Made by a program: the position numbers and the translations under genes. A stretch of 59,891 nt of DNA from a bacterium (GTDB lineage Bacteria; Joyebacterota; Joyebacteria; Joyebacterales; Joyebacteraceae): the NCBI GenBank assembly GCA_025782395.1, contig JALGZD010000063.1, positions 1-59,891 of the forward strand. The letters run 5' to 3'. Positions 24,747-59,251 of the stretch are shown here, one piece after another (positions within the stretch are counted from its first letter, which is position 1; every line of letters starts with the position of its first letter). The notes beneath the pieces are model-generated. The model saw only the letters and a program-made list of their open reading frames with translations, did no database searches and was not told the origin of the DNA.

Positions 24747-25169
24747 TCAGATGGCCTTCTTGAGCGTGACGGTCGTGCCCTCACCCTTTCCCATCTCGAA
24801 CACCACCGAGTCCATCACCTCCCGCATGATGTAAATGCCCCGACCCGATGTCCCCATGCGCCGTTCGGGGTCGGTCGGGTCGCACACGCGATCGATGTCG
24901 AACCCGCCTCCCTCGTCGTGGACGGCCACTTCGAACACGCCTGGTGACCACTCGAACCTGACGGTGACCTTCTTGTCCTCACTCATGTCGTTCCCGTGAA
25001 CGACGGCGTTGGTCACCGCTTCGACAACGGCGATCGCAATCTCCATGAGAGAACTGTCGTTGAAGCCCGCCAGCTTCCCATACTTGCCCGTCAATGAGTC
25101 TATGCGTTCCAGCACGTCGAGTTCGCTCGGAAGGACGAACTCCTCAACTCCTGATGCTGCGTCAGACAT
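24747..25169 (-). CDS. Anti-sigma factor serine kinase (RsbW/SpoIIAB-like)
   Basis: A 140-residue GHKL-type ATPase. The N box EAVTNAVVHGN is at about 50-60, then DEGGGFD around 92 and GTSGRGIYIMREVMD around 112. Proteins of this class bind a sigma factor, or another target, and phosphorylate a STAS antagonist. ATG 25169 follows GGAG at 5 bases. It lies 25 bases downstream of a STAS gene, forming a partner-switching pair. No sigma factor or PP2C phosphatase is encoded nearby. Confidence 0.9.
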   Translation of the reverse strand: MSDAASGVEEFVLPSELDVLERIDSLTGKYGKLAGFNDSSLMEIAIAVVEAVTNAVVHGNDMSEDKKVTVRFEWSPGVFEVAVHDEGGGFDIDRVCDPTDPERRMGTSGRGIYIMREVMDSVVFEMGKGEGTTVTLKKAI

Positions 25170-25194
25170 CCCGTCTCCCACGCAGAGGCCTCTA

Positions 25195-25530
25195 TCAGAA
25201 GCTGTCCAGGGCTTCCGGCTCTGTCGGATAAGTATCGAAGATGGTCAGGAGCTTCGTGATCATGAAGAGGCTTCTGATCCTGTCGGAGACGTGCGCAAGT
25301 TTGAGAACGCCCTCTTCGCGCTGAATACTCGTGTAGATGGCCATGAGGCTTCCGAGTCCTGTACTGTTGATCCACGGCACGCCCTTGAGATCGATGATGA
25401 ACTTGCGACTTCCATTCTCGAGCAACCGTTTGATCTCGTCCCTCACGTTGTCGGTTTCCCCTCCGCCCATGAGGTTTCCAGAGACATGAACGATTGCGAC
25501 ATCTCCCTCCATCTTGGTCTTGAACTTCAA
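25195..25530 (-). CDS. STAS-domain anti-anti-sigma factor
   Basis: A 111-residue SpoIIAA/RsbV-like STAS protein. The phosphorylation loop reads LKGVPWINSTGLGSL, with Ser56 at the usual acceptor position, so this copy should be regulated by phosphorylation. TTG 25530 is used as start because GGAGGTG lies about 7 bases before it. Probably co-transcribed with the kinase gene that follows. Confidence 0.93.
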   Translation of the reverse strand: MKFKTKMEGDVAIVHVSGNLMGGGETDNVRDEIKRLLENGSRKFIIDLKGVPWINSTGLGSLMAIYTSIQREEGVLKLAHVSDRIRSLFMITKLLTIFDTYPTEPEALDSF

Positions 25531-49695: not shown

Positions 49696-51828
49696 CTAGC
49701 CGGGAGCGCAGGTCAGAACGACCCGATCCCCCGGTCCAATTTCTGATCCGGGTCTTGGTGACTGCGTCTGAACCAAGCCGTTTCCCTCGAAGACCACAGC
49801 GAGGCCGAGACTTGAAGCGAGTCTGCGGGCGGCTCTCACGCTCATTCCCCGAAGCTCCGGCATCCGCGCCGGATCTCTGATGCCCGCGTCGGAAGAAGCC
49901 GGCGAGATGGTGGCGGACACAGCGCCGCGTGCGTTGACCAGGTTGTGCAACGGAACCGCCGGCAGAATGCCCCTCGCTCCGGCCGGCACGACCAGATCGG
50001 AGCTGGAATCTCCGGAGCCGAAGCCGGACGCAACACTCATGACTGGAACGGCGTTCTCACCGCCGGCACAGTAGAGAGAACTCCCATCTGCGTCTCTGCG
50101 AAGCCGCTGCCTTCCGAACACCAGATCGTGACCGGACCCTCTGACGAGCCGCTCGACGATGCGACGGAAGACCGGCGCCGCTACCTGTCCGCCCAAACCT
50201 CTTCCCCGCGGCTCGTCTATCACGACGAGGCAGACGATCCCTGCATCCTCAGCCGGGGCGAAACCGACGAACGACGAGACCCACCTCCCGGGCGCGTACC
50301 CTCGAATACCCGGCACAACCTTCTGGGCAGTTCCCGTCTTGCCGGCCACGGTCACCTCGTTGAGCGAGGCCTTTGTCCCGGTCCCGCGCTCCGTTACCTC
50401 AACCATGATCTTGCGCACAGCAGCAGCGACCTCCGGCTCGATAGCGCGCCGGACGACGCACGGCCCGGCCTCTTCCACGACCCGCCCGTCACCATCGAGA
50501 ACAGCCTTCACGACGTGCGGTTCCATCAGGTAGCCGCCGTTCGCGATGGCGGAATAGGCAGTGGTGAGCTGGAGCGCTGTCACCGCGATCTCCTGACCGA
50601 TGCCGATCGTGTGAACCGAGCGCGAACTCCATTCAGTCGGTTCCCTGAGCGTTCCACGCACTTCACCAGGGAGATTGACGGCCGTGAGGCAGCCGAAGCC
50701 CAAATCCCTCGCGTACGAATAGAGAGGACTCTCTCCAACTTCGCCCGCAATCTGCGCGAAGCAGACGTTCGATGACTTCACGAGCGCCGTCTCGAAGTCC
50801 ATCCAGCCGTGCGGCTTGACGTCTCGAATCGTAAAGCTCCCGAACCGCCCCATGCCCTGGAAGGCGTAGTAGACGGATGTCGTATCAGCGGCGCCTGTGG
50901 CGAGGGCGGCGCACGCTGTGAAGACCTTGAAGGTTGATCCCGGCTCGAACTGGTCGGTGACCGCTCTGTTGCGCCAGTTCTCCTCGGCGAAGCGCTCCGG
51001 CCGGCTACAGTCGAACGACGGCCAGTTGGCCATCGCGAGTATCTCGCCGGTCCACGGGTCCTGTACAATCACAGTTCCGCTCTTCGCCTCGTACTCCCGC
51101 ACGGTGCGTTCGAGTTCAACCTCGACGATTTCCTGCAGATCCATGTCGATGGTGAGGACAACCGACATGCCGTCGTCCGGCGTTGTTCGTGTGCTGGCCG
51201 GCGCGGGGGTACGCTGCCGCCTGCTGTCCATGTAGTAGTAGACGGTCGCCTCAGACCCGGTAAGCAGATCGTCCATGCGACTCTCCATTCCGGAGATGCC
51301 GTGCCCGTCGATATCGGTGTACCCGATCACATGGCACGCGCCCCTGCCGAACGGATAGACCCGCTTCGTTTCAGCGAGGAACTCAACGCCCGGCAGATTC
51401 ATCGCCGCCAGGACCTCGGCCCTCGCCGGTTCGACCTGCCGCTCAATCCATACAAAACCCGTCTTCTTCCTGAGCCGGGCCTCGTACGACGCCGCGGAGC
51501 CGCCGAGCGCTCTCGACAGTCCTCGTGCCACAGTCCTCGGAGATGCGATCTCCCCGGGGTAGGCACAGATAGAATTGACTGTGAGGTTGTCAGTGAGACG
51601 GACCATATTCCTGTCGAAGATCTGGCCCCTCTCCGGAGCCAATTTGACTTCCACCACCTGCTGACGCTCGGCCAGACCGGCCAGACGAGGCGCATGCACC
51701 ACCTGGATCAGGATCAGACGGAGCACAATGAATGCCCACACACCCAGACCCATGAGGAGCGTGGCGGCAAACCGCTTCGCGTGAACCCGCCCAGGCACCG
51801 TGTGTCTAACCGTTGGTCCGTGCATCAT
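49696..51828 (-). CDS. ftsI: Class B penicillin-binding protein with PASTA domain (FtsI/SpoVD-like)
   Basis: A 710-residue transpeptidase that cross-links septal peptidoglycan. A transmembrane helix (LLMGLGVWAFIVLRLILIQVV, about 22-42) is followed by a PBP dimerisation domain and a transpeptidase domain with Ser298 and Lys301 in EPGSTFKVF, SSN in VKSSNVCFAQ and KTG in AGKTGTAQKV. A single C-terminal PASTA domain (MPELRGMSVRAARRLASSLGLAV) ends the protein, after a linker of about 80 residues. ATG 51828 follows GAGG and overlaps ftsL by 23 bases. Confidence 0.96.
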   Translation of the reverse strand: MMHGPTVRHTVPGRVHAKRFAATLLMGLGVWAFIVLRLILIQVVHAPRLAGLAERQQVVEVKLAPERGQIFDRNMVRLTDNLTVNSICAYPGEIASPRTVARGLSRALGGSAASYEARLRKKTGFVWIERQVEPARAEVLAAMNLPGVEFLAETKRVYPFGRGACHVIGYTDIDGHGISGMESRMDDLLTGSEATVYYYMDSRRQRTPAPASTRTTPDDGMSVVLTIDMDLQEIVEVELERTVREYEAKSGTVIVQDPWTGEILAMANWPSFDCSRPERFAEENWRNRAVTDQFEPGSTFKVFTACAALATGAADTTSVYYAFQGMGRFGSFTIRDVKPHGWMDFETALVKSSNVCFAQIAGEVGESPLYSYARDLGFGCLTAVNLPGEVRGTLREPTEWSSRSVHTIGIGQEIAVTALQLTTAYSAIANGGYLMEPHVVKAVLDGDGRVVEEAGPCVVRRAIEPEVAAAVRKIMVEVTERGTGTKASLNEVTVAGKTGTAQKVVPGIRGYAPGRWVSSFVGFAPAEDAGIVCLVVIDEPRGRGLGGQVAAPVFRRIVERLVRGSGHDLVFGRQRLRRDADGSSLYCAGGENAVPVMSVASGFGSGDSSSDLVVPAGARGILPAVPLHNLVNARGAVSATISPASSDAGIRDPARMPELRGMSVRAARRLASSLGLAVVFEGNGLVQTQSPRPGSEIGPGDRVVLTCAPG

Positions 51829-52225
51829 CGTTCCTCGCGGCCAGATCCTCCGGCCGAACTGCGGGACTGAGCGCCCCATCCTCCAAGTGGATGATCTCAC
51901 CCCGCTTCGGATAGCGCATGCGGAGGCGCTCCTGAGCATATTTCTGAATCCGCTCTCGGCTCGAGAGCGTCACACACTCCATTTTCAGAAAGCCGATCTC
52001 CGTCTCGAGATGTTCTTGCTTGTCCTGGAGCTCCTCGATCTCGGATGCGAGTCTCGTCGCGTAGACCTGTTCCCAGATGCAGAGAACACCTGTCACCAAC
52101 GCGGCGCTCCAGATCAGGAGTCCCTTTGCGTGAAGCGGTCCACCCACCCTGTTCACTAGTCGTGTGAGGAGCCGCAGTTGCTTCACTCCGTAGAGTAGTC
52201 GCTTCACGATCCGTTGAGTCTCCAT
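51806..52225 (-). CDS. ftsL: FtsL-like cell division protein
   Basis: A 139-residue bitopic protein. One transmembrane segment (LLIWSAALVTGVLCIWEQVYA, about 36-56) is followed by a leucine-zipper-like coiled coil (SEIEELQDKQEHLETEIGFLKME) and a short tail including RMRYPKRGEIIHLEDG, as in FtsL/DivIC proteins. The assignment rests on topology and its place between rsmH and ftsI; sequence identity in this family is always low. Confidence 0.85.
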   Translation of the reverse strand: METQRIVKRLLYGVKQLRLLTRLVNRVGGPLHAKGLLIWSAALVTGVLCIWEQVYATRLASEIEELQDKQEHLETEIGFLKMECVTLSSRERIQKYAQERLRMRYPKRGEIIHLEDGALSPAVRPEDLAARNDDARTNG

Positions 52226-52323: not shown

Positions 52324-53268
52324 TCAGTTGCTGCTGTTCGGAGCCAGCTTCTCAGCGGCCCTGAGCTTCGCCGACCTTGCCCTCGGATTCCTTTCGATCT
52401 CGACGTCGCGCGGACGGACCACACGACGCGTGAGAATGCGCAGAGTGGGCTTGCGCCCGCACGCGCAGACCGGAAGTTCCCTGGGACAAATGCATGGCCG
52501 TTCAGCCGTGGCGAAGTCCTGTTTCACGATGCGATCTTCGAGCGAGTGATATGAGATAACGACTATCCTGCCACCCGGACGCAGGAGCGCTTCCGCTTGT
52601 GCGAGACCGGAGCGCAGGTTCTCGAGTTCGGAGTTGACGGCAATCCTGAGCGCCTGGAACACACGAGCCAGCGTCTTGGTGCGGTTCCGTGGCTTCGTGC
52701 TCACCACGGCCTCAGCCAGCTCCGTCGTTGTCCGGCATCGCCCGGCGTCTCGAGCCGCAATGATTGCCCGCGCGATGGGGCGCGCACGATGCTCCTCTCC
52801 GAAGCTGTAGAGGATTCCGGCCAGCGACCGCTGGTCGCTCTTCGCGATGAGGTCCTTTGCGCTCGGCCCGTACCCTCCGTCCAAGCGCATATCGATCGGT
52901 CCCTCCTTGCTGTAGCTGAAGCCGCGCCCTGGATCGTCGAGCTGCATAGAGGAGAAGCCGAGATCGAAGAGGACTCCGTCTACACCGGCGAGTCCTCGCT
53001 CACCAGCGAGCATGGACAGATCTGCGAAATTGCCGTAGGCGATTTCCACTCTATCTCCGAACGGCCTGAGCACCCTCTTGGCCTCGTCGCGTGCCGCATC
53101 GTCCAGGTCCAGACACAGGAGCCTGCCGGCGGGAGCGTTGTTGAGAATCTGGCTCGCATGGCCCCCCGCGCCCACGGTGCAATCGATGTACTGACCGTCC
53201 GTGCGGGTAACGAGGTATTCGACAACCTCGGCAGCCATGACCGGCAGATGTGCAGCGTGCACTATCAC
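52324..53268 (-). CDS. rsmH: 16S rRNA (cytosine1402-N4)-methyltransferase
   Basis: A SAM-dependent methyltransferase of about 314 residues (MraW). It has HLPVMAAEVVEYL, DCTVGAGGHASQIL (SAM site), DGVLFDLGFSSMQLDDPGRGFSYSKEGPIDMRLD in pieces (LGFSSMQLD, GRGFSY, DMRLD), FQALRIAVNSEL, and ISYHSLEDRIVKQDF. The start is unclear: GTG 53268 is taken, but no ribosome site is visible for it, for GTG 53262 or for TTG 53304. It lies downstream of the STAS gene. Confidence 0.95.
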   Translation of the reverse strand: MIVHAAHLPVMAAEVVEYLVTRTDGQYIDCTVGAGGHASQILNNAPAGRLLCLDLDDAARDEAKRVLRPFGDRVEIAYGNFADLSMLAGERGLAGVDGVLFDLGFSSMQLDDPGRGFSYSKEGPIDMRLDGGYGPSAKDLIAKSDQRSLAGILYSFGEEHRARPIARAIIAARDAGRCRTTTELAEAVVSTKPRNRTKTLARVFQALRIAVNSELENLRSGLAQAEALLRPGGRIVVISYHSLEDRIVKQDFATAERPCICPRELPVCACGRKPTLRILTRRVVRPRDVEIERNPRARSAKLRAAEKLAPNSSN

Positions 53269-53332
53269 TTCGCTTTGTTTCAGATACGCGGCGTTGTACT
53301 GCAAACGACGAGAACGGGACGGGCGAGTACGG

Positions 53333-53692
53333 TCAGCTCGCTCGAAGATGGTGTGAAGATGCCGGCCCCATGCGTGTGTCCGCGTCGTATGAATTCGTAT
53401 CGAGGAAACCGTGGAGTCCAGCGAGGAGCAAGATATCCCTCACATACGGACTCAGACCGGCAATCCTCAGCTCTCCTGCGTATGAGTGAACTAACTCGAA
53501 CTCCCGGGCGAGCTGTGCTGCGTTCTGGTAGTTCACGTGATCCACGTCGGAGAAATCGAGGACGATTCGCGTCCGTCGCGCGGTCAGAAGACCGATGAGG
53601 TGCCGGTGCAGCTGACTGAGGTCGCGCGCTCCCATGGACCCGGCCATAAGGAGTACGGTCGCTCTCTCTGCCTCTCTCGGGAGGATGGTCAT
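53333..53692 (-). CDS. STAS-domain protein inside the dcw cluster, no phospho-acceptor Ser
   Basis: A 119-residue STAS-like protein. The order of elements matches the fold: a first strand (ATVLLMAGSM), helix, strand LDFSDVDHV, helix NAAQLAREFELVHSY, then LRIAGLSPYVRDILLLAGLHGFL. At the loop where SpoIIAA-type proteins have D-S-S-G-L-G it reads NYQNAAQL (residues 54-61), with no Ser or Thr at the acceptor position. ATG 53692 follows GGAGTAG and sits 4 bases after the mraZ stop, so it is coupled to mraZ. mraZ and rsmH are normally adjacent, so this is an insertion in the usual order. Function unknown. Confidence 0.82.
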   Translation of the reverse strand: MTILPREAERATVLLMAGSMGARDLSQLHRHLIGLLTARRTRIVLDFSDVDHVNYQNAAQLAREFELVHSYAGELRIAGLSPYVRDILLLAGLHGFLDTNSYDADTRMGPASSHHLRAS

Positions 53693-53696
53693 GTTT

Positions 53697-54161
53697 CTAC
53701 TCCTCCCCTCCGTTGCCGGTCACATCGGTCGGATTCTCCCAGAGGGTCTCTGCGACCTCCTCGTAGGAGAGACCGAACTCCTCCTTGTACTTCCGGTATT
53801 GCTCGGGATCCCAGAATTCCACGCGCTCTATCGCCCCGATCACGAGCACATCCTTCTGGAGTCTCGCAAGCTCTCTCAGATTCTGAGGGATGACAATGCG
53901 GCCATGGCTATCCACGCTTACTTCGCACGCTCGTGACGCCATCTCCCGTGTGAAGAACCTCGATTTGCCCGAGGTGAAGGAGAGCGAGCGCAGCTTGCCC
54001 TCAAGGCGTCGCCACTCATCCTGCGGATAGAAGAAGAGACACCCGTCGAGTCCGAGGGTCAGAACAAAGACCTCCCCCGTAGCCTTCCTGAACTTCGAGG
54101 GAATCGAAAGACGCCCCTTCGCGTCGAGCGTGTGTGTGTATGTTCCTAGAAAAGAGGTCAC
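53697..54161 (-). CDS. mraZ: Transcriptional regulator MraZ
   Basis: A 154-residue MraZ with two SpoVT/AbrB-like halves: FLGTYTHTLDAKGRLSIPSKFR at the N-terminus and ACEVSVDSHGRIVIPQNLRELA in the middle, each with the DxKGR- or DSxGR-type motif. It represses its own dcw operon by binding GTGGG repeats. GTG 54161 is the start. It is the first gene of the cluster. Confidence 0.96.
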   Translation of the reverse strand: MTSFLGTYTHTLDAKGRLSIPSKFRKATGEVFVLTLGLDGCLFFYPQDEWRRLEGKLRSLSFTSGKSRFFTREMASRACEVSVDSHGRIVIPQNLRELARLQKDVLVIGAIERVEFWDPEQYRKYKEEFGLSYEEVAETLWENPTDVTGNGGEE

Positions 54162-54185: not shown

Positions 54186-54210
54186 CCCACTTCATCCCAC
54201 TTCAACCCAC
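54186..54210 (-). promoter_or_regulatory. MraZ operator: three GTGGG boxes
   Basis: On the minus strand, GTGGG at 54210-54206, 54200-54196 and 54190-54186, each 10 bp apart (GTGGG plus 5 bases). This is the direct-repeat site bound by MraZ in other bacteria. It lies between the -10 hexamer and the mraZ start. Confidence 0.9.
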
Positions 54211-54217
54211 TCGCGGG

Positions 54218-54247
54218 ATACTAGCCGTCCTCCCTAGATGCTGTCAA
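54218..54247 (-). promoter_or_regulatory. dcw cluster promoter
   Basis: On the minus strand, TTGACA (54247-54242), an 18-base spacer and TAGTAT (54223-54218). The start should fall close to the first GTGGG box, so MraZ binding would block it. Confidence 0.8.
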
Positions 54248-54514: not shown

Positions 54515-57500
54515 TCACTTGATGAGCAGCATTTTTCTCGACTCGCTCGCGGCATCGACGGTAAGTCTATAGAAGTAGACGCCCGATGCGACCGATCTCC
54601 CGTCTCCGTCGCGGCCATCCCAGACGGCCGAGCGCCGTCCGGGCTCCACCCGCGAGTTCAGAAGAGTGCGAACAAGCGATCCTCGAACCGTGTAGATGGA
54701 GAGGCTCACCGGTGCACCGTCACCGGCGGCTGGCACAACGAATTCGATCGTCGTGAGCGGGTTGAACGGATTCGGGACGTTTTGTTCCAGAAGCCGCCCG
54801 GCTGAATCTGCGACATCATCATCGGAAACACCAACGGGCATTTCGAAGCCATAGAACTGGGTCCGCCACAGATCATGAAGGAAGCATCCCCATTCGATAC
54901 CGGCTCCATCATCGTAGGCGCCTTCACAGTCCCAGACATATACTCCGGTGTCCATCCCGCCAATCACGACTTCCAGATCGCCGTCTCCGTCAACATCGGC
55001 CACGGTCGGGGACCCATAAAGATCGGCTCCGGTCTGGATAGGCCACCCATCCACAATCGTGCCGTCAAGATTTAGGGCAAACAGCTTGCCCGAATCACTG
55101 CCGACGATCAGCTCGAGATCAGGATCAGCATCGATATTGGCGATCGCCGGACTTGATTTCACGCTCGTGCCCAGAAACTGCGGCCACCCGGCTATAGTGT
55201 TGCCCTGGTAGTCCCATATCCTGATCTCACCATCCGAGCCCACTTGGACGAGTTCGAGAAAGCCATCACCCGTTATGTCTGCAAGGACAGGCGAGGGCGG
55301 GAAATCCCCGCTGCTCGCTATCAACTGCGGCCACCCGGCGAGCGCGTTCCCCTCGTGGTCAAACAGCCAGACATACCACGACAGGGACATGATGGCGATC
55401 TCTAGATCACCGTCCCCGTCGACGTCTCCGACGGCGGGCGAGCCGTACGCCTTAACCCCGATGGATATCGGCCAGCCAGGCACATTGGAGCCATCCGCAT
55501 TGAAGCAGTAGACGCTCTCTGTGGCGGCCGGCTGCAGGATCTCGAGATCACCATCACCGTCTATGTCTGCAATCGCTGGAGAAGCATAGACCCACGGGGT
55601 TCCGAGATCAGCAAAGACGCCGACCGTGAGCGGGTCATCGTCCCCGTCAATGAACTCGGATCCATTGTAGCTCCAGCAGTAGAGCTTGCCGTCCGCGCAC
55701 GGGATTATCACTTCGTTTCGTCCATCGTTGTCGAGATCGGCCAGGGCCGGACTGGCCCAGCAGAACTTTCCGGTGGTGACGGGCCACCCCGAAACGACGC
55801 TGCCGTCCTCCCCATTCCACACGAACACCTCGTAAGCGGCTCCCCCTCCGGTTCCCACGTCGGCCCAGGCGGCCGCGACTATTTCCACACCGCTGTCGCC
55901 GTCTACTTCGCCGACCGCCGGAGTAGAGCGGTATCCACCCTGACCATCCACGATGAAGATGCCGCCGGTCCTGGGGTCGCCGTCCCCATCCCGCACCTCC
56001 ATGCCGTCGGCGTGCCACGCATAGAGCTCTTCCGAAGCAACCAGGATCTCGTTTGAGCCGTCACCGTCCAGATCAACGACCACGGCACTCGAATAGATGG
56101 CTGCGGATGTCGCAAGCGGCCAACCGGTGAGGCTCGGCGGATTGGTGCTGATACTGAGTACGGGTGATGAGAGGCTCGCATTCCCGGATGAGTCCACTGC
56201 GACAACGTAGTAGTAGTAGCGCGTCCTATCCTCCAATCCAGCATCGGCGAAATACGATACGCCCTCAACGATCGCCGTGTTAGCTACCGCATAGGGTCCG
56301 GATTGGTCCTCGCTTCTCCACACATCGTATCCCCGGATGTCGGGCTCGAGAGCCTGCTTCCAGTGGAGATTGATCGTCGTTCCCACTACGTCGCCCCAGA
56401 GTGAGTCAGACGGATCGGGTCTGTGCACGTCGAGATGCTTCGTCCAGATCTTGCCGTACTCATCGACCAGCATGAGCTGAAACCGGTCTGTGATATCCCC
56501 GAGTACGGTGAACTCGAACCCGTCGGAGCCTGTCGCGGCCACGCCGGCTGAGATATCTCCCCACACATCGGTGCTGTCTGAGAAGCCGACCTGCAGAGGA
56601 TCTCCGTAGCTCAGCACACCGGTAACCCCGTCGGCGTCACCGTTGCCTTCGTTGATGACATCGAAAAGAAGTGTGACGGTCTCCCCCGTCTCAGGAACGC
56701 CGTCACCGTCACCACCGTAGGAGTCATCGATCTGAGTGTGGATGTGGACCAGATCCGGAGCATAGACGCGAATCGTGAATTCTTCCTGCCACGCGGATCT
56801 CGCGCCCTCCGAAAAATCGATGGTTAGCTCGGCATCGTAGTTGTTGGGACAGTCGGATGTGACAAACAGCCGGAAGGCAGCCAGAGATTCCACGGTCGCC
56901 GCCGGTTCCAGATCACCGAGAAGCACCGTGTCTGTCTCGATCACAATGTAAGGATCCGTTGAGGATATGACTGCCGTGACTGCGGCAGCTGTTGCGATCC
57001 CGGCGTTCCGGACCGTGACATCGAGTTCCAGGGTTTCGTCCGGCTCCGGCTTGCCGTTGCTGTTCCCGGAGCTTCCTCCGGTGCTGTCGTCGTCGATCGT
57101 CACGTCCGTGAGATGCACATAAGCTCCGGCGGCCATGACAACATTGATGTTGGATTCGAAAACGTAGTAGTCGGCGTGCGTGACGGTCACTTGGAGTACG
57201 CCTGTCAGCGTCGGAGTAAAATCAAGGTGAACATGGCCGGTGCCATCAGTGATCCCGTACGTGTACACGTCCCCTGATGAAGAGGAGACACAGACCTTCG
57301 CGCCCTCCACGAAGCCGGGGTCGGTCACGTTGAACGTCATTCCGTCTTCCCCAACCGACATGGCGCCGGAAAAGGCGACGGAGAGGTCACTCGGACGTTG
57401 CGTTCTCATAGCTATCTCGGGGTCGCCCAGCAGAATCGTGGCGAACTGCGTCCACCTGTCGGTGTTGTCACGACCTGATTCCCCAAAACTCGCGTGAAGT

Positions 57501-59251
57501 GCCAGTGTCATCCCCAACAGTGGTCCTATCTCCTGGCATCCAGAGACGTACAGGAGATCCAGCCAGTCCCAGTAGTAGTCGCGGCACGTCGTCGGGAAAG
57601 CGTATCGGGTCGGCCCCAGCGCTGCGAAAGCCCCTCCATTCGGGTTGGTGACGGCTCGCTCTGCGATGCAGTCGTAGTCAATGGCCGCAGACGTACAATT
57701 GAGCAGCCAGAGAAACCCGGCCTTGTCGATACCGTTTGTGAGCCCCGAGATGTCGTTCATCCCGATGTAGTTGTTGAGCCCCACTCTCATGGCATCCTTG
57801 TTCCCGTGACCAACGTGGGCCACGAGATTGTATCCCTGCTCAAGCGAATCCACTGACGCTACGTCACTGATAGGATAGGCGTCGGGAAACGGAACGATGT
57901 TGGCGTACAGCCTGATATCGGAAATATGGGCGGGAACAAACGGGAGTCCCGGCTCGACGATGTCGACCGCGCCATCAAGACTGTACGGTCCGTTCTCCCA
58001 ATCGTATGGAAAAAGCACCTCTCCCAAGTACAGGTTGCGATCGGTGAAGTGTGGTACGGGGCTCTCCCGGTATGCTTCGCACTTAGCCAGGAACGCCTCC
58101 ACTTCGACTACGTTGCTCACCGGGGCGCGGCCAACGAAAACGTCGGCATAGAGATCGACGCCGTCACCCACGCTCTCCTCGCTCCTGTAGCCCTCCCCGA
58201 ATATCCCGTCACCGTCGCCGTTCCAGTTGCCGTCGAGGTCCGAATAGTAGAGGTCCGTAGGGATATCCAAACCGCCGTAGTAGGAGGTGCGCCCATACCG
58301 CGTCGGCACAATCTCGGTGTCGCCTCCCAGCAGCACGTATGTTGTTCCCCAGGAGGCGTATGCATCCTTGAGAAAGAATCGTATGCGCTCGGCAGTGTCG
58401 CATCCCCCCGGGTAGTTCGCATCGATCCACGACACCGTCCGAACGACGGCCGGCACGCCTTTCCGGGTCTTCCAGTCCGCGAGCTCCTGGAAATACGGCT
58501 CCAATGCGTTGCTCGTGACTATGACGTACTCAACGGGGCTGCCCTCGAGTGAAGGCGTGTATCGGGGCGCGAACCCTCCCGTTACCCAACCGGAGACTAC
58601 ATCGGTCTCCACGTTTCTGAGCGCGTCGACATCTTCAGGGTTGGCGACGATGCCGCGCACGAGACGACGATAAAGCTCGTCCGAGCCCGCGGTGACCCTC
58701 ATTCGATCGGCCGCTCGCCTGCCGGACGATTCCAGACTCAGTTCCACGGTGAGTTCAGGCGCCAGCACAAGTCTGCCGGACGCGGGCTTCAGCTGCACGG
58801 GATACAGAGCCACGGTCGCGATGCGGTACCCACCGAGGAATCCATCTCCGAGGTAGACCGCACGCTCCGGAGGATAGGGAAGATCACTGGCGTAGATGCG
58901 TTCGTCCGGCTCGACCCACGGCGCGCTCTCGCCGATCGGCACCTCGAGCTGGACCGGTTGGATTGTGTGTTCGCCCTCGAGTACGACCTCATCGCCCTCC
59001 AGGATCATGAGTTCCCCCACCGTCATTCCATCTGGAATCACAAAGTGGACGATGTGAGCTGGAATGTCCGGCTCCCCCACTACTCCTAGCCCTCTCCCGC
59101 CGGCGAAGCTCAGGGTCTCGTACCCTCTTGTCTGTCGAAGTGTGATATCGTCTGCGGAAAGCTCGGTGTGCGCGACGGGTCCGGCCACAGCCGTCATCGT
59201 CGCCGCAGTTGTCGCCAAGGCAAGCAGTGTAACAACGAGTGCCGATCGCAT
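54515..59251 (-). CDS. Giant secreted C25 peptidase with FG-GAP-like repeats and FlgD-like sorting domain
   Basis: A 1578-residue exported protein. Signal peptide (LVVTLLALATTAATMTAVA), a propeptide-like region to about 230, then a C25 domain to about 640 with the dyad His482 (VAHVGHGNKDAMR) and Cys519 (LLNCTSAAIDYDC). Ig-like segments and a fibronectin-like segment (WKQALEPDIRGYDVWRS) follow. From about residue 1050 there are seven or so beta-propeller-like repeats with calcium-loop patterns (DLDGDGSNEILVAS; DIDGDGDLEILQP; DVDGDGDLEIAI). The end is a sorting module with NVPNPFNPLTTIEFVVP, WDGRDGDGRSVASGVYFYR and KMLLIK. ATG 59251 follows GGGGGAG. Probably a cell-surface or secreted protease with a binding propeller; substrate unknown. 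Confidence 0.92.
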   Translation of the reverse strand: MRSALVVTLLALATTAATMTAVAGPVAHTELSADDITLRQTRGYETLSFAGGRGLGVVGEPDIPAHIVHFVIPDGMTVGELMILEGDEVVLEGEHTIQPVQLEVPIGESAPWVEPDERIYASDLPYPPERAVYLGDGFLGGYRIATVALYPVQLKPASGRLVLAPELTVELSLESSGRRAADRMRVTAGSDELYRRLVRGIVANPEDVDALRNVETDVVSGWVTGGFAPRYTPSLEGSPVEYVIVTSNALEPYFQELADWKTRKGVPAVVRTVSWIDANYPGGCDTAERIRFFLKDAYASWGTTYVLLGGDTEIVPTRYGRTSYYGGLDIPTDLYYSDLDGNWNGDGDGIFGEGYRSEESVGDGVDLYADVFVGRAPVSNVVEVEAFLAKCEAYRESPVPHFTDRNLYLGEVLFPYDWENGPYSLDGAVDIVEPGLPFVPAHISDIRLYANIVPFPDAYPISDVASVDSLEQGYNLVAHVGHGNKDAMRVGLNNYIGMNDISGLTNGIDKAGFLWLLNCTSAAIDYDCIAERAVTNPNGGAFAALGPTRYAFPTTCRDYYWDWLDLLYVSGCQEIGPLLGMTLALHASFGESGRDNTDRWTQFATILLGDPEIAMRTQRPSDLSVAFSGAMSVGEDGMTFNVTDPGFVEGAKVCVSSSSGDVYTYGITDGTGHVHLDFTPTLTGVLQVTVTHADYYVFESNINVVMAAGAYVHLTDVTIDDDSTGGSSGNSNGKPEPDETLELDVTVRNAGIATAAAVTAVISSTDPYIVIETDTVLLGDLEPAATVESLAAFRLFVTSDCPNNYDAELTIDFSEGARSAWQEEFTIRVYAPDLVHIHTQIDDSYGGDGDGVPETGETVTLLFDVINEGNGDADGVTGVLSYGDPLQVGFSDSTDVWGDISAGVAATGSDGFEFTVLGDITDRFQLMLVDEYGKIWTKHLDVHRPDPSDSLWGDVVGTTINLHWKQALEPDIRGYDVWRSEDQSGPYAVANTAIVEGVSYFADAGLEDRTRYYYYVVAVDSSGNASLSSPVLSISTNPPSLTGWPLATSAAIYSSAVVVDLDGDGSNEILVASEELYAWHADGMEVRDGDGDPRTGGIFIVDGQGGYRSTPAVGEVDGDSGVEIVAAAWADVGTGGGAAYEVFVWNGEDGSVVSGWPVTTGKFCWASPALADLDNDGRNEVIIPCADGKLYCWSYNGSEFIDGDDDPLTVGVFADLGTPWVYASPAIADIDGDGDLEILQPAATESVYCFNADGSNVPGWPISIGVKAYGSPAVGDVDGDGDLEIAIMSLSWYVWLFDHEGNALAGWPQLIASSGDFPPSPVLADITGDGFLELVQVGSDGEIRIWDYQGNTIAGWPQFLGTSVKSSPAIANIDADPDLELIVGSDSGKLFALNLDGTIVDGWPIQTGADLYGSPTVADVDGDGDLEVVIGGMDTGVYVWDCEGAYDDGAGIEWGCFLHDLWRTQFYGFEMPVGVSDDDVADSAGRLLEQNVPNPFNPLTTIEFVVPAAGDGAPVSLSIYTVRGSLVRTLLNSRVEPGRRSAVWDGRDGDGRSVASGVYFYRLTVDAASESRKMLLIK

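Follow-up and report, generated by a model that had tools for sequence, protein, structure and literature searches.

In the dcw cluster, the first genes, mraZ and rsmH, are regarded as an invariable pair, and to our knowledge the reason for the strong conservation of MraZ is still unclear. In the window analysed here, i.e., the whole stretch of 59,891 nucleotides, a gene for a small STAS protein, which we call dcw-STAS, lies between the two. It shares operon, promoter and MraZ boxes with mraZ and rsmH, but a published dcw synteny survey does not count it among its 17 dcw genes, and STAS is absent from the text of that survey (PMC8871954). SpoIIAA and RsbV resemble dcw-STAS in fold, length, profile and stand-alone STAS architecture, and SpoIIAA is retrieved from the PDB with the family profile at E=9e-11. 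The differences are a tyrosine in place of Ser58, the location in the dcw cluster, the lack of a neighbouring kinase or sigma factor gene, and the occurrence in two complete genomes that have no convincing RsbW-like kinase. With MlaB the protein has in common a stand-alone STAS fold, which in MlaB does a job unrelated to sigma factors, and a weak match to STAS_2, which we take to be the Pfam STAS family covering MlaB. However, dcw-STAS is encoded outside the mla operon, the window protein has no match to the NCBIfam mlaB model at E<=1, and some carriers of dcw-STAS have no MlaE. The stressosome proteins RsbS and RsbR share the STAS fold as well (RsbS, 6jhk, E=6e-5), but dcw-STAS has neither an N-terminal sensor domain nor a Ser/Thr acceptor, and no stressosome genes are seen next to it in the dcw loci.

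On the minus strand of the window the genes follow each other in the order mraZ, dcw-STAS, rsmH, ftsL and ftsI (Table 1). Only 4 nt (53693-53696) separate the mraZ stop from the dcw-STAS ATG, which is preceded by a purine-rich sequence resembling a ribosome binding site (GGAGGGGAGGAGTAGAAAC), whereas the start codon of rsmH is uncertain and may be TTG at 53304 or a GTG slightly downstream. The protein matches Pfam STAS (PF01740) with E=2.1e-8 and 34.3 bits against a gathering cut-off of 22.6. In a profile search of its own genome it is found with E=5.6e-8, together with one other STAS only, which lies next to an RsbW-like kinase. NCBIfam covers dcw-STAS by the generic anti-sigma antagonist model only (TIGR00377, ant_ant_sig); the window protein stays below its cut-off (32.5 versus 53.45 bits), and some relatives exceed it. 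AlphaFold2, run with the family alignment, predicts a STAS fold with pLDDT >90 across most of residues 1-98 and a disordered tail, and the best PDB matches of the predicted fold (Foldseek) are SpoIIAA and RsbV with E about 1e-6 to 1e-5. Within the genus, dN/dS amounts to 0.20-0.35 for the whole protein and 0.17-0.30 for the domain, from which it follows that the frame is translated and under selection. An artefact or untranslated frame is thus ruled out by the homologues, the dN/dS values and the fold, and with the open reading frame and the Pfam matches of the gene and its neighbours, the STAS gene 4 nt from mraZ that the preliminary description had placed between mraZ and rsmH is real.

Table 1. 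Features of the dcw head and of the kinase locus used for comparison in the window.
Feature	Position	Strand	Remarks
Sigma-70-like promoter TTGACA-18-TAGTAT	54218..54247	-	just upstream of the MraZ boxes
Three MraZ boxes TGGGTTGAAGTGGGATGAAGTGGG	54186..54209	-	TGGG-N6-TGGG-N6-TGGG, 10-bp period
mraZ	53697..54161	-	154 aa; Pfam MraZ E=2e-35, TIGR00242 5e-38
dcw-STAS gene	53333..53692	-	119 aa, ATG start; STAS domain ~1-98, Tyr55, Tyr83, tail 101-117 disordered
rsmH (mraW)	52324..53304	-	Methyltransf_5 1e-99, TIGR00006 2e-91
ftsL	51806..52225	-	Pfam FtsL 1.8e-8
ftsI with C-terminal PASTA domain	49696..51939	-	Transpeptidase 3e-71, PASTA 1e-10
RsbW-like kinase (comparison)	24747..25181	-	Pfam HATPase_c_2 1e-22
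Canonical Ser-type STAS, WINSTGLG (comparison)	25195..25530	-	adjoins the kinase; STAS match 25210-25518

The MraZ-box pattern occurs once in the window, with 0 matches expected by chance, and MraZ boxes are present in all 18 phylum members examined, as three boxes in 17 and as two in the remaining one. Between 52000 and 54600 the only promoter-like match is the one upstream of mraZ (0.4 expected in shuffles). The proposal that the STAS protein is produced under MraZ control together with the division genes therefore agrees with the layout: three MraZ boxes and a single promoter-like site upstream of mraZ place the gene for co-expression.

Some further features of the locus were observed. Directly upstream of the dcw operon, at 54515-59251 on the minus strand, lies a gene for a 1578-aa gingipain-like protein with a Peptidase_C25 domain, FG-GAP repeats and a FlgD Ig-like end. 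The gap between dcw-STAS and rsmH (about 53305-53332; L008-L016) contains a CACCGCGTAC-like motif before rsmH that is conserved in many members of the phylum, and the C-terminal PASTA domain on FtsI is likewise seen in this phylum. The tail of dcw-STAS ends with xRAS or xQAS in most members, and its codons (53333-53384 in the window) display low synonymous change compared to the domain in some genus pairs; this low synonymous change and the conserved end of the tail are possibly a signal at the DNA level. In family f162 (L242, L243) the protein is shorter than elsewhere, because part of the helix 2/strand 4 region is missing.

The phylum of the window comprises 20 genomes of one family, and dcw-STAS lies between mraZ and rsmH in all 18 that have an assembled dcw head, so that the comparison with the dcw clusters of relatives, proposed in the preliminary description as a check, came out in favour of the gene. 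The genomes G011 and G014 of genus g8 were considered as counter-evidence and dropped, as neither assembly contains a match to mraZ or rsmH. The window belongs to a metagenome-assembled genome (MAG), and a contig scan for relatives returned MAGs labelled Candidatus Eisenbacteria and others, plus two non-dcw matches. In a survey of 386 genomes, in which STAS profile matches were joined with the coordinates of rsmH, a STAS gene was located directly upstream of rsmH in at least 12 further families (at least 18 genomes), and all 18 regions retrieved from those 12 families display the order mraZ-STAS-rsmH-ftsI. Three further phyla were searched. The G148 phylum has dcw-STAS in 10/10 genomes, the G295 phylum at 30/30 retrieved loci, one of them lying at a contig edge without mraZ, and the G047 phylum at all of the 30 best-scoring loci. 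Of 18 spot checks in other families of the G047 phylum, 14 gave dcw-STAS, the remaining 4 being Ser-type STAS genes elsewhere. The loci of these phylum searches are the best-scoring ones, so that the penetration of dcw-STAS in these phyla is not estimated without bias.

After removal of duplicates, 115 dcw loci from 27 families remain, 18 from the phylum of the window and 97 from 26 other families. The STAS gene lies between mraZ and rsmH in 114 of them, and the remaining one is at a contig edge. Eight of the families (f7, f25, f65, f132, f159, f174, f183 and f245) belong to none of the four searched phyla, and therefore at least five phyla carry dcw-STAS. A phylum-specific insertion is ruled out by this presence in other phyla. 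The position between mraZ and rsmH was thus described correctly, but the word "inserted" gives the wrong picture, as the gene belongs permanently to the dcw cluster, both in the phylum of the window and in several others. One of the carriers, G579, encodes a PilQ with a near-identical, full-length match to PDB 3jc8, which is presumably the PilQ of M. xanthus. Because of this match we tentatively assign G579 to Myxococcus, and dcw-STAS apparently occurs in that genus.

At the position of the regulatory serine the preliminary description had seen no phospho-acceptor, and this is borne out by the alignments. Both in the HMM and in the MAFFT alignment Tyr55 aligns with phospho-Ser58 of SpoIIAA, the first serine after the aspartate, and the phosphorylation site Ser56 of SypA is at the same position (PMC10120452). 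In the 115 dcw loci the equivalent column contains Tyr in 108, Phe in 3, Val in 2, Leu in 1 and His in 1, and Ser or Thr in none. In contrast, 45 STAS matches from other places, in these genomes or in different ones, have Ser (43) or Thr (2) there, and as these controls were picked for scoring best against the dcw profile, the contrast is a conservative one. Column 55 is the most class-specific of all, followed by column 83, where the controls mostly have Lys or Arg. In a first set of 72 proteins Tyr55 is present in 66, Tyr83 in 64 and both in 59. In the AlphaFold2 model, Tyr55 stands at the start of helix 2 and Tyr83 at that of helix 3, and they are expected to share one face of the modelled protein. 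Judged from the sequences, dcw-STAS would not be switchable by a serine kinase of the RsbW type; phosphorylation of Tyr55 by a tyrosine kinase is conceivable in principle and would render the protein switchable.

On sequence grounds dcw-STAS is a distinct STAS subfamily, set by its dcw position and the loss of the acceptor. It evolves fast, with about 20% identity between phyla, and a quick tree of 114 rows, calculated after removal of the Tyr column, is poorly resolved; most dcw rows stand apart from the controls, and 3 changes are needed. A single dcw clade is not rejected (p-AU 0.92) and has a higher likelihood than the free tree, and the alignment is compatible with one origin. The STAS fold and domain are already known. 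A dcw-located STAS subfamily with a lost acceptor is not described in the mostly open-access literature that was searched. That the family exists and is conserved is firm; the same does not hold for its function.

As to this function, we favour the reading that dcw-STAS is an adaptor, independent of phosphorylation, that is made and used within the MraZ-RsmH circuit, and we hold it to be about evenly poised between right and wrong. We place the adaptor inside this circuit because the dcw head is what all carriers share. The face that once docked the kinase would have turned into one that binds a protein constitutively. The cell would produce dcw-STAS in constant proportion to MraZ and RsmH, and the protein would likely act as a cytoplasmic adaptor inside the mraZ-rsmH division circuit. 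As a guess, MraZ comes first among the candidate partners, with dcw-STAS tuning its DNA binding, followed by RsmH or another cytoplasmic dcw product. In a more specific version, which we consider possible but rather unlikely, dcw-STAS would belong to the core of the division operon in several phyla and would have been overlooked there; as the third component of the circuit it would bind MraZ (or RsmH) and determine the output of the mraZ operon. The fixed position may also reflect co-regulation alone. A third gene between mraZ and rsmH in many lineages, with its switch removed, provides a handle on the conservation of MraZ; dcw-STAS is a conserved and apparently unstudied operon member that is now open to testing, and its apparent presence in Myxococcus makes it testable by deletion in a standard model.

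STAS domains, e.g., of some SulP proteins or of YtvA, bind nucleotide, acyl carrier protein or lipid ligands. The two class-specific tyrosines could likewise form a pocket by which dcw-STAS binds such a ligand and reports the metabolic state to the division operon, but no ligand residue was identified in dcw-STAS, and we regard a ligand sensor as improbable. Much the same degree of doubt applies to an MlaB-like role, in which dcw-STAS would serve the lipid transporter MlaFED as its STAS subunit, bind MlaF and be encoded outside the mla operon. For the genome of the window this role, suggested in the preliminary description, is possible: it has a MlaE-MlaF-MlaD operon with no mlaB adjacent and only two PF01740 STAS proteins, and the weak STAS_2 match points in the same direction. 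MlaE is present in 32 of 35 dcw-STAS carriers tested, including every Tyr-type genome tested. However, three carriers that are 97-100% complete (G083, G191 and G354) have no MlaE, and a general MlaB role is therefore disfavoured. Moreover, G043 has a separate Ser-type STAS beside MlaE in addition to its Tyr-type dcw-STAS, the MlaB structures of E. coli rank below SpoIIAA and RsbV in the fold search, and a role in lipid transport leaves the dcw position unexplained. Position 55 of the dcw-STAS proteins of G083, G191 and G354 (L092, L097 and L102) is V, F and V, respectively, so that the carriers without MlaE are of the non-Tyr type, whereas all Tyr-type genomes tested have MlaE; as the independent lineages are few, this is a lead only.

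The low identity between phyla would also suit a passenger, i.e., a non-essential and harmless gene kept in a conserved operon, but the same slot at 115 loci in 27 families, the purifying selection seen in dN/dS, and the persistence of both the acceptor loss and Tyr83 from one phylum to another make this very unlikely.

No RsbW-type kinase is encoded in the dcw locus of the window. In G148 and G285, both 100% complete carriers of dcw-STAS, no convincing RsbW-like kinase was found, the best RsbW/HATPase_c_2 matches being weak (E 1.9e-5 and 1.8e-6) and in frames of >1,000 residues, and dcw-STAS is their only STAS match with the profiles used. That an unphosphorylatable dcw-STAS always holds the RsbW-like kinase at 24747 and keeps a sigma factor free, as had been considered in the preliminary description, is hardly credible and the least probable of all readings, even if the fold is nearest to SpoIIAA and RsbV, the kinase lies within the window and a Ser-to-Ala variant of SypA is constitutively active (PMC10120452), because the docking site is filled by a bulky Tyr and not by Ala, the kinase adjoins its own Ser-type STAS partner, and the two complete carriers have no convincing kinase. 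At two other loci (L164, G043:C144:21932-23440, and G190:C13:39754-41265) genes for MlaE, a Ser-type STAS and an RsbW-like kinase are mutually adjacent, which suggests a putative kinase-regulated Mla transporter.
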